Shown here piece by piece: positions 3,290 to 52,054 of a stretch of DNA of 64,000 nucleotides. Numbering within the stretch: position 1 is the first letter of the stretch; each line of letters opens with the position of its first letter. The stretch comes from Tahibacter soli (GTDB taxonomy: Bacteria; Pseudomonadota; Gammaproteobacteria; Xanthomonadales; Rhodanobacteraceae). A program made the position numbers and the translations under genes. The notes under the pieces were generated by a model. It was given only the letters and a program-made list of their open reading frames with translations. It made no database searches and was not told the DNA's origin. The stretch lies in the NCBI RefSeq assembly GCF_025717065.2, contig NZ_JAOVZO020000003.1:682001-746000 (forward strand), given 5' to 3'.

Positions 3290-3649
3290 ATGGCACGAGT
3301 TAAGAAAGGCGTTACCGCGCGTCGCCGCCACAAGAAGATCATCGCCAAGGCGAAGGGCTACTACAACGCCCGCCGCAAAGTATTCCGCGTCGCCAAGCAG
3401 GCCGTCACCAAGGCCCACCAGTACGCGTACATCGGCCGCAAGCAGCGCAAGCGTCAGTTCCGCGCGCTGTGGATCGTCCGCATCAACGCCGGTGCGCGTC
3501 AGTTCGGCCTGTCGTACAGCCGCCTGATGAACGGCCTGAAGAAGGCGAACATCACGGTCGACCGCAAGGTGCTGGCCGACATCGCGGTGCACGACATCGC
3601 GGCTTTTGGTGCGCTGGCCGAAAAGGCGAAGACCGCACTGGCCGCGTAA
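3290..3649 (+). CDS. rplT: 50S ribosomal protein L20
   Basis: L20 is an early 23S rRNA-binding assembly protein and the autorepressor of rpmI-rplT in bacteria where this was studied. The 119-aa length is typical. The basic N-terminal extension ([17 protein letters not shown]) and the globular C-terminal domain (from about residue 60) are both present. A GGGAGGA site at 3275-3281 precedes the ATG. A hairpin resembling a terminator separates it from pheS. Confidence 0.97.
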
Positions 3650-4762
<1,113 letters not shown>

Positions 4763-4836
4763 CGCGCCGGCGCGCGTCGCGCCGTACGAAGCACCCCAAG
4801 GACAGCGGCGCGCGCGTTTGCGCCCAACGGTGAACC

Positions 4837-7230
4837 ATGAAATTCAGCGAAAACTGGCTGCGCGAACTCGTCAATCCGAACGTCGACCGCGCCGAACTGT
4901 GTCATCGCCTGACGATGGCGGGTCTTGAAGTCGAAGGCGTCGAGCCGCTCGGCGCGGGGCTCGGCGGCATCGTCGTCGGCGAAATCGTCGAATGCGAAAA
5001 GCATCCGAACGCGGACAAGCTGCGCGTGTGCAAGGTATCGACCGGCGCCGGCGAGTTCGTGCAGATCGTCTGCGGCGCGCCGAACGCGCGCGCGGGCCTC
5101 AAGGCGCCGCTCGCGACGATCGGCGCGGCGCTGCCGAACGGCCTCGTCATCAAGCAGGCGCAACTGCGCGGCGTCGACTCGTTCGGCATGCTGTGCTCGG
5201 CGAAGGAAATCGGCGTCGACGCCGACGCGTCGGGTTTGATGGAACTGCCCGCCGACGCGCCGACCGGCGCGCCGCTCGCGGCTTATCTCGCGCTGCCCGA
5301 CGCGAGCATCGAGCTCAAGATGACGCCGAACCGGCCCGACTGCCTCGGCCTCGTCGGCCTCGCGTACGACGTCGCCGCGCTGTTCGGCGCGCCGCTCGCC
5401 GAACCGCCGCACGATCCGGTCGCATCGACCGTCGACACGCGCCGCGACATTCGGCTGGAAGCGGGCGCCGACTGTCCGCGCTACCTCGGCCGCGTGATCG
5501 AAGGCGTCGATCCGGGTGCGCCGTCGCCGCTGTGGCTCGCCGAACGCCTGCGCCGCGCCGGCCTGCGACCGATCAGCGCGGTCGTCGACGTGACCAACTA
5601 CGTCATGCTCGAGCTCGGCCAGCCGATGCACGCGTTCGACCACGACACGCTCGACGGCACGATCGTCGTGCGCCGCGCGCGCGACGGCGAGGCGCTCAAG
5701 CTGCTCGACGACAGCGAACGCACGCTCGACGGCGGCTTCCTCGTGATCGCCGACGACGCCAGGGCCGTCGCGCTCGGCGGCGTCATGGGCGGTTACGAAA
5801 CGCGCGTCACCGATGCGAGCACGAACATCTTCCTGGAATGCGCGCACTTCTCGCCGCCGGCGATCATGGGCCGCGCGCGCAAGCTCGGCATGCATACCGA
5901 CGCGTCGCATCGCTACGAGCGCGGCGTCGATCCCGAACTGCCGCGCGCCGCGGTCGAGCGCGCGACGGCGCTGCTGCTCGCGATCGTCGGCGGCAAGGCC
6001 GGTCCGATCGTCGAAGCCGTGCTGCCGGAACACCTGCCGCAGCGCCGCGCGGTGAATCTGCGCCGCGACCGCCTCGCGCGCGTGCTCGGCATGCACGTGC
6101 CCGACGCGGAGGTCGCACGCATCCTTGCCGCGCTCGGCATGCACGTCGCCACGACCGCCGACGGCTGGCAGGCCACGCCGCCGTCGCGCCGCTTCGACAT
6201 CGAGATCGAGGAAGACCTGATCGAAGAAGTGGTGCGCGTGCACGGTTACGACCGCGTGCCGACGCGCGCGCCGAGCGGCGAGCTGAAGCTCGGCCTGCCG
6301 CCCGAGGCGAACGTGCCGGCGACGCGCGCGCGCGCGCAGCTCGCCGCGCGCGGCTACTACGAGGCGGTGTGCTACAGCTTCGTGGCGCGCGAATGTCTCG
6401 ACCGCTGGTCGCGTGCGGACGGCGCGATCGCACTGGCCAATCCGCTCAGCGCCGACCTCGCGGTCATGCGCACGTCGCTGCTGCCGGGCTTGGTCGAGGC
6501 GCTCAAGCACAATCTCAATCGCCAGCAGGATCGCGTGCGCCTGTTCGAGACGGCGCGCGTGTTCGCCAAGCCGGCATCGGCGAGCCGCGAAGACTGGCCG
6601 GTCGAGACGCGCCGCATCGCCGCGGTCGCGTGCGGTCGCGCGGCACCCGAGAACTGGAGCGCCGACAAGCGCACGGTCGACTACTACGATATCAAGGCCG
6701 ATCTCGAAACGCTGCTGGCGCTGGCGGGCCCCGGTCGTTCGATCGAGTTCCTGCCGCTCGACCGCCCGGACTTCCATCCGGGCCGCAGCGCGCGGATCGC
6801 GATCGACGGCGAGCCGGTCGGCGTCGTCGGCGGCCTGCATCCGCGCCTGCTCAAAGCGCTCGATCTCGACGTCGACGTGTACGCGTTCGAAGTCGATCTC
6901 GACCGCGCGCTCGCCGGCCGCCTGCCGGCGGCGGCGGAGCTGTCGCGGTACCCGTCCGTGCGGCGCGACATCGCCATGGTGTTGCCGCAGGAGGTCACCT
7001 GGGGGCAGGTCGAGAGCGTATTGCGCGCGTCCGTCGGAGAGGTCTTGAGCGAACGGGTAGTCTTCGATCAATATGCGGGTGCGGGTTTAGGTTCAGGACT
7101 AAAGAGCCTCGCTATTGGCTTGATTTTGCAGGACAGTTACCGCACTCTTACGGATCAGGACGCAGACCGTTGCGTAGGCTTGGCGGTCGCTGCCCTGGAA
7201 CGCGAATGCGGCGGTAAGTTGCGGGGGTAG
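4837..7230 (+). CDS. pheT: Phenylalanine--tRNA ligase beta subunit
   Basis: The 797-aa beta subunit (E. coli 795) binds and edits tRNA-Phe. Visible parts are the N-terminal EMAP/OB-like tRNA-binding domain (about 40-150, with [13 protein letters not shown]-type residues), the B3/B4 editing domain (about 210-375), the B5 domain (about 400-475), the inactive class II-like core, and the C-terminal ferredoxin-fold anticodon domain ([13 protein letters not shown], about 705 onward). The stop is separated from the ihfA ATG by a single base, implying translational coupling. Confidence 0.97.
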
Positions 7231-43329: not shown

Positions 43330-46300
43330 ATGAGCATGCGCAGTTTCGGATTCTGGCTGTCGGCAACATTGGTTCTCAGCAGTTCAGCCCACGCGATATG
43401 CGGTCCGACGAGCAGCGCGCCGTCGACGATCTACCGCTACACGTATCAGGCGTCAGGCGTCTCCTGCACGAGTCTGGAAGAAGCTGAAGCCCAGATTCCG
43501 GGGTCGAATCCGGGGGGTGCGCAACGTACAAACAGGCGTCAGTGCGCTCGGACTTGCGTCGTCCGCACAAACGGTGACCGAGTCGCAGTACCGGCCCAAC
43601 GGGGCCACGTCGATGGCCTCCGCGGCATTGCACAACCCGCCGGCTTCGTCGACGCCGAGCTTTCGCTTGTTCGTCAAGAATCAGCCAGGCCCGATAACCG
43701 CCGCGTGCGCGACAGCAGTTCCGGGCTGCACCGCGAATGGCTGTGCGACAGCCGAGGATCTGCGCAAGCTCGCCGAGTGCCAGTTTTCCGCGACGTGGGG
43801 CAACTCGCAAAACTTGTTTTGTTGGCAGCGAACTGGCCCGGCGAGTATTCAGGGAGCGTCGCTCACAAGGCCGCCTGTCGTCATCGGTGCCGGCAATCAG
43901 AGCGGTACGCTGCTATATGGGCCGATTTCAAGCACAAGCTACGACTCGGGGATGACACTGTCGATACCCGCGCAGTCGTGCTTCTCGTCGACCAAGACGG
44001 ACGAGAGCGTGCCGGCGAAGATTGTGCAGACCTTCAACTGGGGCGTCGCCAACAGCGCTTCCGTAAGCTGTCCAGCCGGTTCGACGTTGAGCGGTTCGAC
44101 TTCCGTCGGCAGTGCGTGCGGGACCGACTTCGCCAAGTTTTTCATCCAAGCTCCCGGACTGAACCAGACGCCCGGCCAATGCGGTGTCGGCAACCCTTGC
44201 TTCCCGGGCAACGGCAACAAGCAGGTCGATGAAGTCGGATTGCGCCATGGCGCCATCGCGCTCGACTTCCACTACAACTCGTTGCGACAGAATGCGCCGC
44301 TGGCTTACGTCGACCGCAACTGGTCACACTCGTTCGCAAAACGCGTAGTTACTGCCTGGATGCTGCCCGGACATTATGTGGCGTCGGGACCTTCCGATCC
44401 GGAAGTGGATCCGATTGCACAAGTGAACGGAATGGTCGTACAGGACGAACGGGCGCAGATCGAGGCTTATCTTCGCGATGGCAACCTGCCATCTGGAACG
44501 TTCAGGTCGACCGCGACGACGGGCAAATACCTGCGCTACAAGACGGGCGCCACCGCCGCTCAGCAGACCTGGGAACTGACGTACCCGGACGGCACGATTG
44601 AAGTTTACGATCGCGCGGGTCGACTCACTGCGATCAACAGCCCCGGCGACCCGAGAGACAGCCTTGCACTGAGCTACGGCGGAGCGCCGATCACCGGTGT
44701 GCTTTCGGCTAACGTGTCGCAGAACGATCCGATGTTCTGGCGCCTCTTGAAGATCACCGACGGCAACGGCCGTTTCGTGACGCTCGACTACGAGGATTCG
44801 CCGATCTACCGACTCAAGCGCGTGTTGGCCGACGATGGCGTCGAGCTCGTCGGCCTCGGCTACGACAGCGCTCGCCGCATGACGTCGATGACACGGTTCG
44901 GCAAGACGCGCACGTTCGTCTACAACGAAGCCGCGTACGCGCCTCTGGCGGCGACAGTGCAGGGCTATTGGCTGACCGGTATCGTCGACGAGGACAGCCG
45001 CCGCTACGCGACATACACTTACGACGACTGGGGGCGTGCGACTGGCAGCTGGCATGGCACCGTCACCGATAGCGCCGGCAAGGTCTCCGTCGAATACCTC
45101 AACGACTATTCGAGTCGTGTCATGCATCCGCTCGGTCGCCAGGTCACCTACAACTACAATCCGACGAAAGCCTATCGACGCATCGATTCGATGACGGACA
45201 GCGACGGCTCGATCCTCCTGGAGTATTCCGCGGCCAACCGGATCAGCGCTCGCGTCGATCGTCGCAACGTGCGTACGGAGTTCGAATACTCGGCCGACGG
45301 TACGTTCGAAACGGCCCGAACCGAGGCGAAGAACACGCCTGAGCAACGGCGAATCGAAACCGATTGGGATGCGGCGCGCGGTCTGCGTACGGCAGAGCGC
45401 ACGTTTGCCGACCCACCGGGCGGTCCACGCGTAAAACTCGAAGACACGCGCTATCGCTACGAAACCGGCAGTTCGCGTCTGGTCGGCGTCGACCGTGTCG
45501 ATCCGGTCACCAACGTGTTTCGCAGCGTCGATCTGACGTATTGCAGCGCCGCGGATGTCGCCAATCCCACCATGTACTGTGCTTTTGTCGGCCAGCTTCG
45601 ACAGGTCGATGGCGCGCGCAACAATGTGACCGATGTCGTCGACGTTACGACTTATGCGTATCGCGCGAGCGACAATCTGTCGGGCTGCGGCACGTTCGTC
45701 GGGCCCTGTCATCGCAAGGGCGATTTGTGGCGCACGACGAACGCCTTGGGTCATGTCGAAGAGGTCGTTGCCTACGATCGGGCTGGCCGAGTCAAGCGCA
45801 TGACCGATCCGAACGGCACGATCACCGACTACGAATACGACGAGCGCGGCCGGTTGCTCAAGCGCAGCGTACGCGCCGATGCGAGCGGCGTGCCGAACGC
45901 CTCGCTCGATGCGTTCGCGCAGTTCATCTACGACAACTCGGGCAACGTAACCTACGTCTATCCGCCGGGCGGCCACGGTGCGTACTTGCGTTATGAGTAC
46001 GATGATGCGCAACGGATTACGGCGATCGTCGACTCGCTCGGCAATCGCATCCAATATCAACTGGATCGCGCCGGCAATCGTACGAGCGAGCAGGTCGTCG
46101 GGAGCGACAGCCAGATCAGGCGTACGCTGGCGCGTGAATACAACGCGCTCAATCGCCTGAAGAAGGTTCTCGCGGGCAACCAGCAGGTCGTTGCTTTCAC
46201 GGCGAACGAAACCGGTATCAGCGAGGGTTACGACGCGAACGGCAATCCGCGTCGCATGAGTGACGGGCTCAGTATCCCCACCGACCGGCAGTACGACGCC

Positions 46301-48502
46301 TTGAACCGGCTTACCCAGGTTCTTCAGGACTACGACGGCAGCATCACGCCACCGGCGGCTGCCAACGTACGAACGAAGTATGCGTACGATGCCGCCGACC
46401 GGCTCAAGTCGGTAACGGATCCCGATTCCGTCGCCACGACGTACGCCTACAACGGGTTTGGCGACGTTTCCACGCTGGGCAGCAACGACGGCGGCAATCG
46501 TACTTATCTGTACGATAACGCCGGCAACCGGACCCGCGAGACAGATGCGCGAGGCGTCGTTGTCGACTTTCGCTACGATGCATTGAATCGACTTACGCAC
46601 GTGCTGTACCCGGACAGCAACCTCAACGTGCGGCGCGACTATGACCAGCCTGATAGCGTCACTGGTTGCGTCGGGTCGTTTGCGAAAGGACGCCTAACGC
46701 AAATCAGCGACCAGGATGGCATAACGACCTACTGCTACGATCGCCGCGGCAACGTGCTGAAAAAATCGATAGTTACGATTTGGGACTCTCAGTCGATCGT
46801 TTACGAGTACACACGTGGCGATCTGCTCAAATCGGTCAAATATCCCAGTGGCGCCATCGTGCGCTACACGCGCGATGCGATGGCTCGGGTCAACAGCGTA
46901 ACGTGGCAACCCGATGCAGTTTCGACGCCGCAGGCACTACTGACCGGCGTGAGCTACTACCCGTTCGGACCCGTGCAGACGCTGACGTTCGCCAACGGGC
47001 GCACGTTGACCAAGACCTACGATACGAAGTACGCGATAGACAGCGTGGCAAGCTCGGCCGTGGACGGCTTGGTGCTGGATTTCACGGTCGATGCGATGAG
47101 TAACATCAAGGATGCCGCGCCGTCGATCGGAGGTGCTCCGCTGCGACGGTACGCCTACGACCGCCTGTATCGACTCACCGGCGTCAACACGGCTGCGGGC
47201 AGCCCGTTGGAAGGCTACGCCTATAACAAGACCGGCGATCGCACGTCGAAGAACATCGGCGGCGTCGTGGAGTCCTATACATATACGCCCGGCACGCATC
47301 GGCTGGCGAGCGTCGGCGGTCAAGCGCGGGGCAGTGATGCCAACGGCAATACGACGAGCGGCATCGGTCCGCAGCCGCTGCAGTACGACCAGACGAATCG
47401 CTTGACCAAAGCATTCGAACTGATCAATAGCGCCGCGAGTCCGATTTCGTACTCGTACAACGGTCAGGGGCAACGGGTACGCAAGATCGCGGCGACGAAT
47501 CGCAACGACGCATGGTATGGCGAGGACGGTCAGCGTCTTGCCGATCAGGAGTACATCAGATATTGCGAGGGTGGTGGTACGGAATCGCTTTCGAAAGGCG
47601 GGCCCGTGGAGGCATGCGCCGGCGGCGGTACGATGCAAAACGTCCCTACGGATTACAAAGACTATATATACCTGGATGGCGTTCCGGTTGCGGTAGTCTT
47701 GTTCGTGCAAGGTGCCAAGAACCCCAAAATGCTGTATATCGAAACCGACCATCTCGGCACTCCGCGTACGGTCGTCGATGCGGCGACGAATGCGGTCAAG
47801 TGGCGCTGGGATTTCTTTGGCAGCGCGTTCGGCGAACACGTTCCAGCTGCAATTGCAGGTGGTGTCCGGCTTGATGCGCGCTATCCAGGACAATTTTTTG
47901 ATGCCGAGACTCGGCTGAACTACAACTATTTTCGGGACTATGAGGCGGCGGTCGGGCGTTATATTGAGAGCGATCCGATTGGAATATTTGGAGGAATCAA
48001 CACCTATGCATATGCAATGGCTGCGCCGCATGGAATGATTGATCCATGGGGGCTCGCGGGGTGTGTCGTCAATTTTATAGGATACCCAATTGCAATTCCC
48101 GGCACGCAAACTCACATTCCTTTGGCGCATGCCGGAGTTTTGGCATACGACGAAACGACAGGGCGCACTCGTTACTACGAATATGGTCGATACAACGATG
48201 ATTTTGGAAATGTGCGGAGAGGGAATGTTCCAAATTTGGAAATCGACCCGGACGGCAATGTGACCGACGCTTCCTGGGAGCGACTAAAGAACTCGTTAGC
48301 CAAGAATCAAGGCAAGGGAATTCGACCGACAATGGATTGCGTTGATAGGGCGGACGATAAGAAAATTGTCGAATTTGCGGAAGGGCGAATGAAGGATAAG
48401 GAGCGCGCCCCCTATAGTTGGAACCCGCTGTGGCCAAATACGTGTGGTACGTTCGCGAGCGAGGCGCTATATAGCTCGGTGCGCCCGATATGGGCATGGT
48501 AA
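43330..48502 (+). CDS. RHS/YD-repeat polymorphic toxin with signal peptide, frame broken at a G6 tract
   Basis: The ATG at 43330 (AAGGG seven bases upstream) encodes a signal peptide (RSFGFWLSATLVLSSSAHA) and Cys-rich stretch that ends in another frame at a G6 tract (43512-43517). Losing one G joins it to the main 1661-codon frame beginning at 43517, for about 1723 aa. The body has a DUF6531-like segment (VGLRHGAIALDFHYNS), about twenty YD repeats (YDARGR / YAYDGFG types), and the RHS core with DHLGTPRTVVDA, RYPGQFFD and a DPIG-x19-DPWG autoprotease-like motif. The last ~147 aa after DPWGLAG are a variable tip, of lower GC, with HAGV and YYEYGRY early and NTCGTF late: a possible permuted papain-like/NlpC hydrolase. 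An immunity candidate follows after 15 bases. Confidence 0.85.
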
Positions 48503-48517
48503 AAGAAAGGCGAGGCC

Positions 48518-48835
48518 ATGTTAAATAGAAGGACTTTGTGGACTCTATTACTGGCGAGTCTTTTCTTTTTCGGCTATTTGTCAGTGCTTCTATTGGATGG
48601 AGGGAGCGCATTGGAAGACTCTCGCAGCGAGGTTCGCCGCCTTCGAGAGAGGAGCGATCTAAGCCTGGAGCTGATTCGGCAGACTTGGCAGGGACGACCT
48701 TTGGCCGACCTTCGAGCGGCACTGGACAAGGTGAACCATGAGGTTGACTCGTCCGAGCCGGGTGCGATTGAGATCGGGCAGATACGATTTGAATACAAAG
48801 ATGGTGTTGTTATTCGCGTCGTTTATTTTGACTAA
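48518..48835 (+). CDS. Membrane-anchored candidate immunity protein
   Basis: 105 aa. An N-terminal TM helix (LWTLLLASLFFFGYLSVLLL) is followed by a charged helical region (SRSEVRRLRERSDLSLELIRQ), WQGRPLADLRAAL and a short C-terminal strand pair. This layout recalls the Imm58-type immunity proteins from memory, not a search. It is close behind the RHS toxin tip, on the same strand and in the same lower-GC DNA, which is the normal position of an immunity gene. A membrane-bound, outward-facing form would fit a toxin acting in the periplasm. Confidence 0.55.
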   Translation: MLNRRTLWTLLLASLFFFGYLSVLLLDGGSALEDSRSEVRRLRERSDLSLELIRQTWQGRPLADLRAALDKVNHEVDSSEPGAIEIGQIRFEYKDGVVIRVVYFD

Positions 48836-49523: not shown

Positions 49524-49624
49524 TGTGGGTCGAACAGGTCCGTTCGCCCAAAGCAGTGCGTCGTCGCCACAGGATCGTCGAGCGGCCTCGCCCATCAGAG
49601 CAGTCCATGCGGGGAGTTTTTGTA

Positions 49625-52054
49625 ATGCGCAATTTTCGAATGAACGTGCTGGCCGCCGTGATCGGCGCGAGCATCTGCGGCGTGGCGGTCCTCCCGGCGA
49701 CGGCGCAGTCGCCCCAAGGCGCAACGGTTGCCGCGACGAAGTCGTACATCATCGAATTCGATGAGCCGGGCCTGTTCTACTCCAGCGTGGGCATGAAGCA
49801 GCGCAAGGTGCCGGTCGGCGAAGCCGCCGTCACGAGCGCCACCGACGCCGGCCGCATCGACGTCAACGCGGCCGAAGCGCGCGACTACCTCAACGCGGTG
49901 CAGATGCAGCAGCAGACGCATCTGGCCCACATCCGCGGCGCGATCGGCCGCAGCAATCTGAACATTACACACTATTACAATATTACCCTGAGCGGCATCT
50001 CGGCCGACCTGACCGAAGCCGAAGCCGAAGCGGTCGCGCGCGTGCCGGGCGTCAAGACGATCTACGAAACCCCGCAGCTGCAGCTCGACACCTTCCGCGG
50101 GCCGACGTTCATCGGCGCGCCGTCGATCTGGAACGGCTCGGCCGTGCCGGGCGGCATCGGCTCGCGCGGCCAGGGCCAGACGCTCGCGTCGCTCGACGGC
50201 GGCACGAACTCGACGCATCCGTCGTTCGCGAACGACGCGAGCTGCGGCTTCTCGATCGCGACGCCCAAGCTCAAGAGCGCGCTCGACTGCACCACCGCGT
50301 CGACCCCGACCGGCGCCTGCAACGGCCCGAATCCGGAAGACAACGAAGGCGGCCACGGCGTGCACACCTCGAGCACCGCGGCCGGCAACGTCGTGACGAC
50401 GACGATCGACCCGACGCTGCCCGTCGTGGCGCCGTACAACTCGATCTCGGGCGTCGCGCCGTGCGCGGCGGTTCGCGCGTACAAGATGTGCGACTCCACG
50501 ACCTGCGGCGGCAACGCCACGCTCGCGGCGATCAACAACTTCATGGCGGCCGGCGACGTCACCGCGGTGAACTACTCGATCGGCCCGACCGCCGGCGGCA
50601 CCAGCGGCACCAACCCGTGGTCGACCGGCTCCGACAAGGAGTTCCTCGCGGCCGTGCAGTCCGGCGTGTTCGTCGCGGCGTCTGCCGGCAACACCAGCGC
50701 CACGCTGGCGACGCCGGGCGGTCGCGTCGCGCATCAGGGGCCGTGGATCATGACCGTGGCCAACTCGACGCAGGACGAGGTGATGACCGCCGGTATCTCG
50801 GCGACCGGTCCGGGCACGCCCCCGGCCAACACGCAGGGCATCTACCTCGTGCCGGGCTCGACGACGGCGCCGCTCACCGCGCAGATTCTCGGCGACATCG
50901 CCACGTACCCGGCGAACATCGAAGGCTGCACCGACGCGGTCGCGGCGAACCCGAACGTGCCCGACAGCGGTACGCCGGGCGGCGGCTTCCCGGCCGGCAC
51001 GTTCACCGGCAAGATCGCGCTGATCCAGCGCGGCGACTGCAACTTCTCGGTCAAGATCGACAACGCGATCGGCGCCGGCGCGGTCGGCGTGGTGATCTAC
51101 AACAACATCATCAACTTCGGCACCGTGTCGATGGACATGTCGGCGGTCACGTCGCCGAACGCGAAGGCGTGGTTCATCGAAGGTCCGTCCGGCCTCGCGC
51201 TCAAGAACTTCATCGCGTCGAGCCTGCCGACCGCCGTGCCGGGCAAGATCGATCCGATCGCCTGGGGCTTGCGCCAGGGCGACGTGCTCAACGGCGGCAG
51301 CCTGCGCGGCCCCACGGCCGGCGTCACCGACCTGACCAAACCGGACATCACCGCGCCGGGCACGGACATCCTCGCCGGCAAGGATCCGGGCAACAACAAC
51401 TACGGCCTGATGAGCGGCACGTCGATGTCGAGCCCGCACATCGCCGGCGTCGGCATGCTGATGAAGGCGGTGCACCCGACCTGGACGCCGGCCGAAATCA
51501 AGTCGGCGCTGATGCTGACGGCGGTTTCGGGCTTCCGCGAAAACGGCACCACGCCGTGGACGCCGGATGACGTCGGCAGCGGTCGCGTCGACCTGACCAA
51601 GGCCGCGCGCGCGGGCTTCGTCATGGACATCGCGAACTACTTCCCGTCGAACACCACGCGTCCGACCGTCGCCGACCAGCGCGCGATGAACTTCGCGAGC
51701 ATGCGCAACACGGTCTGCTCGAAGGCGACCGGTTGCAACTGGACGCGTCTCGTCAAGGGCGTGCTCCCGACCGGCACGTGGAACGTGACGGTCAACAACC
51801 CGTCGCCGGATATCGCGCTGACGGTGGCGCCGATGTCGTTCACGCTGAACAACGACGGCATCTTCAAGGATGGCTTCGAAAGCATCCCGACGCCGACGCT
51901 GCCGGCGACGCAGTCGCTGACGATCACCGCGCAGCCGGGCCCGGCCGCGCCGGTCTCGACGACGACGTGGTGGTTCGGCACGGTGACGTTCACCGAGGCG
52001 AGCAACCTGTCGCCGCCGCTGACGATGACGGTGTCGATCAAGGTTGCGAACTAA
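49625..52054 (+). CDS. Secreted subtilisin-like serine protease (S8) with PA insert and FKDGFE motif
   Basis: 809 aa from the ATG with GGGGAG eight bases upstream. Signal peptide (about 1-28, cleavage after ATA-Q), inhibitor-I9-like propeptide (about 40-165), then the catalytic triad D191 (SLDGGTN), H244 (EGGHGVHTS) and S600 (SGTSMSSPH). The ~350-residue gap between H and S holds a protease-associated domain (GKIALIQRGDCNFSVKI, AGAVGVVIYN). The C-terminal Fn3-like domain contains IFKDGFES, the tag-like motif seen in this bacterial group. Likely exported and self-processed. It is monocistronic, with its own promoter and terminator. Confidence 0.93.
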   Translation: MRNFRMNVLAAVIGASICGVAVLPATAQSPQGATVAATKSYIIEFDEPGLFYSSVGMKQRKVPVGEAAVTSATDAGRIDVNAAEARDYLNAVQMQQQTHLAHIRGAIGRSNLNITHYYNITLSGISADLTEAEAEAVARVPGVKTIYETPQLQLDTFRGPTFIGAPSIWNGSAVPGGIGSRGQGQTLASLDGGTNSTHPSFANDASCGFSIATPKLKSALDCTTASTPTGACNGPNPEDNEGGHGVHTSSTAAGNVVTTTIDPTLPVVAPYNSISGVAPCAAVRAYKMCDSTTCGGNATLAAINNFMAAGDVTAVNYSIGPTAGGTSGTNPWSTGSDKEFLAAVQSGVFVAASAGNTSATLATPGGRVAHQGPWIMTVANSTQDEVMTAGISATGPGTPPANTQGIYLVPGSTTAPLTAQILGDIATYPANIEGCTDAVAANPNVPDSGTPGGGFPAGTFTGKIALIQRGDCNFSVKIDNAIGAGAVGVVIYNNIINFGTVSMDMSAVTSPNAKAWFIEGPSGLALKNFIASSLPTAVPGKIDPIAWGLRQGDVLNGGSLRGPTAGVTDLTKPDITAPGTDILAGKDPGNNNYGLMSGTSMSSPHIAGVGMLMKAVHPTWTPAEIKSALMLTAVSGFRENGTTPWTPDDVGSGRVDLTKAARAGFVMDIANYFPSNTTRPTVADQRAMNFASMRNTVCSKATGCNWTRLVKGVLPTGTWNVTVNNPSPDIALTVAPMSFTLNNDGIFKDGFESIPTPTLPATQSLTITAQPGPAAPVSTTTWWFGTVTFTEASNLSPPLTMTVSIKVAN

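Follow-up and report, generated by a model that had tools for sequence, protein, structure and literature searches.

Here we analyse a 64,000-nucleotide stretch of the Tahibacter soli genome (contig NZ_JAOVZO020000003.1, positions 682,001 to 746,000; hereafter the window), in which a gene for a large RHS protein ends in a short putative toxin tip and is followed, after a gap of 15 bases, by a small gene for a protein with one predicted transmembrane (TM) helix. The locus combines the traits of RHS polymorphic toxins, namely RHS/YD repeats, a core ending at a DPxG motif, a C-terminal tip and a small gene downstream, and its principal parts are as follows:

43517..48502, + strand: RHS carrier body, 1661 residues from a GTG start, with the toxin tip at its C-terminal end (RHS_repeat, 163.6 bits in 11 stretches)
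47825..48055, + strand: match to TIGR03696, the RHS repeat-associated core model, over carrier residues 1437-1513 (positions 3-76 of the 76 in the model)
48041..48052, + strand: DPWG, the DPxG boundary of the RHS core
48053..48499, + strand: toxin tip, TseH-like permuted NlpC/P60 domain, 149 residues (stop at 48500-48502)
48128..48130, + strand: candidate catalytic His, tip residue 26
48179..48181, + strand: conserved Glu of YYEYGRY, tip residue 43, candidate third polar residue
48443..48445, + strand: candidate catalytic Cys, tip residue 131
48506..48515, + strand: purine-rich, ribosome-binding-like stretch 5′ of the small gene (by eye)
48518..48835, + strand: candidate immunity gene (product P0001), 105 residues, one N-terminal TM helix, Imm58-type relative

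The TIGR03696 match extends to the final model position, which falls on carrier residue 1513 (the L in DPWGL), and with the boundary set between IDPWG and LAGCVVNF the tip reads LAGCVVNF...LAHAGV...YYEYGRY...NTCGTF...WAW before the stop. The core boundary given by a first-pass annotation of this DNA thus stands, with a tip length of 149 rather than about 147 residues. That annotation had also proposed a profile search and a structure prediction of the tip alone: the tip matches the TseH-like profile PF25218 with 56.7 bits (curated cut-off 27, E 3.7e-15), and its predicted structure matches the fold of the TseH crystal structure (PDB 6v98). TseH (VCA0285) of Vibrio cholerae, whose immunity protein is TsiH, is the nearest known enzyme. 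Among 16 aligned tips the Cys is kept in all, the Glu in 15 (Asp in L040) and the His in 14 of the 15 rows covering its region, L009 carrying Met in that column and L022 starting after it. The early His read in HAGV and the late Cys read in NTCGTF are accordingly borne out, whereas YYEYGRY, likewise offered as an early His motif, holds no His and instead supplies the conserved Glu. Because His precedes Cys, as in the circularly permuted hydrolases that had been invoked, and because the predicted fold is that of TseH, itself called permuted in PMC12994826, the tip is by residue order and model a member of the permuted, papain-like NlpC/P60 enzymes (LRAT/YiiX-like). The lower GC content reported for both genes was also recovered, at 0.516 for the tip and 0.503 for the small gene, below the carrier body (0.605) and the window as a whole (0.672); so low a GC content occurs in 5 of the 1265 overlapping 783-bp windows that were sampled.

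The tip was matched in three of 61 relatives, its own genome included. At class level, 11 of 369 genomes matched the TseH family, ten of them over the cut-off, and within the order a profile built from six tips matched 6 of 398 genomes; a genome-collection scan yielded six loci. Duplicates of the same places were counted once (L001, L002, L003, L008, L011, L035, L036 and L038 left out), the 16-row tip set excludes L010 and L041, neither of which holds a complete tip in a single frame, and the tree and immunity sets exclude L019, whose frame departs from the family ahead of the Cys and whose locus holds no Imm58-like gene, and L014, which is under the cut-off and carries four stops. In a maximum-likelihood tree the 16 tips divide nine to seven along a 100/100 branch. 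The nine short-tail tips, the window's included, end soon after the Cys helix, and their neighbours encode a single-TM protein of about 102-124 residues in which an almost invariant Asp closely follows the TM helix. The seven long-tail tips, which take in both stand-alone relatives and the RHS-fused L021, continue into a longer tail with a DPRPxSY region that is missing from the window tip, and are accompanied instead by a GGxDGG protein; the profiles of the two neighbour families do not align with each other. L021's GGxDGG protein gave a sub-threshold match to the C-terminal domain of DUF6695 (23.6 bits, cut-off 25), the Pfam family given for the TseH clade in PMC12994826. Beside the TseH-like pair of L017 (Dyella) lies a second RHS tip cassette (L017:3365-3922), again with His before Cys (GHVGLML early, NCSTT late); it has no Pfam match over the scanned 3401-3919 and is followed by a lipoprotein-like gene (L002:2827-3324).

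The single-TM gene accompanies 10 of 11 short-tail tips (window, L012, L013, L017, L018, L020, L037, L039, L040 and L041, with L019 the miss; L053, found through its immunity gene, stands outside both this count and the tree). As first described, the window's copy encodes a 105-residue, TM-anchored protein, with a single hydrophobic stretch near residues 8-26; its structure model reaches a pLDDT of 73.3 and a pTM of 0.42. With a profile built from its nine relatives P0001 reaches 49.2 bits, the best of 300 shuffles 4.4, and in leave-one-out searches the nine-member profile recovered the omitted protein in all ten cases, at 24.6-64.7 bits, vs. 12.1 for the best of 300 shuffles of any member and at most 3.3 for the GGxDGG proteins. 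Two members exceed the Pfam Imm58 cut-off of 25 (L012's protein at 79.4 bits and L047's, whose gene is also in L039, at 60.4), and five of the ten have Imm58 rows once the three sub-threshold ones are included. We relate P0001 to Imm58 (PF15581) because these relatives match the family, although it does not do so itself. The Imm58 motifs are YxxxD, WxG and KxxxE (PMC3482391); P0001 shares the RHS context and holds WQG and KVNHE, as read from its sequence rather than from columns aligned to the Imm58 model, but lacks YxxxD. Zhang et al. filed Imm58 in 2012 under 'Unknown toxins with RHS repeats', an entry that names no toxin domain for it (PMC3482391), and within the literature library searched, no subsequent paper on the toxin of Imm58 came up.

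Members of the family also stand by themselves or beside partners that we did not recognise. An Imm58 search over 398 genomes of the phylum matched two: L052, over the cut-off, with no TseH-like tip as neighbour, and L053, below it, where a TseH-like tip, matched by the tip profile at E 1e-42, has its end overlapped by the Imm58-like gene. The ten-member profile, run against the 369 genomes of the class, gave 12 matches at E 0.01, of which four were members already used; L058-L061 were inspected, L060 (a weak match inside a 477-codon frame) was set aside and L062-L065 fall outside the count, and neither L058, L059 nor the weaker L061 has a TseH-like tip in its locus. The L059 and L061 genes adjoin small unrelated genes (reductase-like and acetyltransferase-like, by eye) and are perhaps orphan immunity genes in gene cassettes. 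L053:1815-2408, at 198 residues, joins a signal-peptide-like start directly to the last part of the RHS core and a TseH-like tip, a minimal exported tip by its layout.

As regards delivery, the window genome (G000, 99.04% complete) gave no match to the type VI secretion system (T6SS) markers VipB, Hcp, VgrG/Phage_GPD or PAAR, each of which gave a match in one or more of the control genomes. In a comparison of 18 genomes, VipB is found in none of the ten with the short-tail branch (G000, G020, G605, G622, G504, G059, G320, G091, G178 and G770, the last with a broken tip that is not in the tree) vs. five of the eight with the other branch (present in G259, G187, G221, G111 and G261, absent from G367, G768 and G769), a count that leaves out G819, the genome of L053, and in which G768-G770 carry no stated completeness. 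TseH is reported to be loaded onto the T6SS with a PAAR protein (PMC7721734), whereas the window domain is an RHS tip. Export of RHS toxins by Sec and the type II secretion system (T2SS) is an established class (PMC3482391, Tables 1 and 2), and its members resemble the locus in signal peptide, RHS repeats, exchangeable C-terminal toxin and downstream immunity gene. L046 (1535-codon frame), L047 (818), L020 (2152) and the short L053 each have a signal-peptide-like start ahead of the tip and in frame with it; in L049 such a start sits on the carrier, with the tip in a separate cassette further downstream (hydropathy computed for all but L020, cleavage sites by eye). The window holds the corresponding elements upstream of its carrier body:

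43330..43395, + strand: signal-peptide-like start MSMRSFGFWLSATLVLSSSAHA, out of frame with the carrier body (translation and hydropathy; cleavage site by eye)
43512..43517, + strand: six-G run where the signal-peptide and carrier-body frames meet (43330-43519 region; described only)

The best 12-residue hydropathy mean of this start is 1.62, weaker than the 2.37-3.12 in four relatives. The window genome has 30 RHS/YD-like matches in all, often several per gene and including those of the window. The next long gene 3′ of the pair (window 49556-52054) appears by eye to encode a large secreted subtilisin-like protease.

Taken together, these data make it likely that the locus is a polymorphic RHS toxin with a TseH-type tip and a single-TM immunity partner, probably exported by Sec and independent of a T6SS, in keeping with the permuted-fold tip and adjacent immunity gene of the first-pass annotation. 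In such a system the RHS shell would carry the cysteine hydrolase behind the DPxG boundary; the carrier would leave the cytoplasm through Sec by its signal peptide and then, probably, cross by a second step other than a T6SS. We infer that the tip would be released at DPxG and act as a toxin on a neighbouring bacterium's envelope from the periplasm, and that the adjacent protein, seated in the inner membrane with an outer part of about 80 residues, would protect the producer by blocking the enzyme in its own periplasm.

Several observations weigh against this reading. In the window, signal peptide and carrier body occupy different frames, a mismatch that may reflect misassembly, a true frameshift or slippage, and in its sequenced form the carrier gene may be inactive. 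Some of the genomes without VipB are closely related, and the count of none in ten has no measured base rate beside it. T2SSL was matched in seven of ten genomes, the window's included, with five over the cut-off, two below it and three without a match; the T2SS is thus a possible but not a general route. Even with E allowed up to 10, P0001 shows no row for Imm58, its sole Pfam row being DUF6994 at E 0.14, and of the five further Imm58-like genes (L052, L053, L058, L059 and L061) only L053 has a TseH-like tip. The frame mismatch at the six-G run, together with the tip fragment beside an open immunity gene in L041 and the Imm58-like genes that exist without a TseH tip, would also suit a decaying cassette, its carrier broken near the start and its immunity gene alone still of consequence as an orphan shield. 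We consider this rather unlikely: the 1661-codon body and tip are open with the catalytic residues kept, a homopolymer assembly error would look identical, and in L046 the frame runs unbroken from the signal-peptide-like start across the tip. That the tip is instead a T6SS effector, its secretion system recently lost or missed by the assembly, is suggested by VipB in six of the eight genomes of the genus (the window's, itself without it, counted among the eight) and by the T6SS role of Vibrio TseH (PMC7721734), but the lack of a match to any of the four markers in a nearly complete genome, the ten short-tail genomes without VipB and the signal-peptide-like starts of several carriers render it highly improbable.

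Within the favoured Sec-exported toxin, the substrate divides the evidence. We give peptidoglycan, on which TseH acts according to PMC7721734 and PMC12663445, a slight preference over lipid acyl bonds, at about even confidence. A lipid-targeting phospholipase or acyltransferase akin to Tox-Act1, PLAAT and LRAT, with no cutting of peptidoglycan, is a substantial possibility that we nonetheless hold short of even. PMC12994826 takes the permuted fold as an argument for lipid targets; it reports that TseH had phospholipase activity on liposomes at pH 8.9, with none detected in its mass-spectrometry assay. A single phage protein (L042, an IMG/VR contig, 4353-5576) joins PG_binding_1 repeats (35.6 bits, cut-off 23), the part on which its PHROGs endolysin matches fall, to a TseH domain (36.1 bits, cut-off 27) that keeps His, Glu and Cys, and a Peptidase_M15_3 gene lies downstream; as sequenced on this one contig, the fusion points to peptidoglycan.

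Among known systems, Tox-Act1, a Salmonella effector, is likewise an antibacterial toxin of the permuted NlpC/P60 kind whose immunity protein is membrane-associated, but it is T6SS-delivered and forms its own clade beside DUF4105, apart from TseH in the tree of PMC12994826. Tox-NLPC/P60 is similarly listed with RHS among the toxin classes of PMC3482391, but with the residue order C, H, D and export by T6SS, PVC or TcdB/TcaC, and the word 'permuted' does not occur in the text searched.

The TseH-like domain is itself already known; the novelty lies in its carrier, in the lack of T6SS matches and in the Imm58-type partner. On balance we favour a separate TseH branch on Sec-exported RHS carriers without a T6SS, partnered by the Imm58-type single-TM family, for which the 2012 listing gave the toxin as unknown. 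The phage fusion provides a separate handle on what TseH-type enzymes cut, and the locus offers a candidate toxin partner for Imm58. TseH has been discussed as a T6SS effector with a disputed substrate, and a branch seemingly without a T6SS and with its own immunity family would widen the use to which this enzyme is put.
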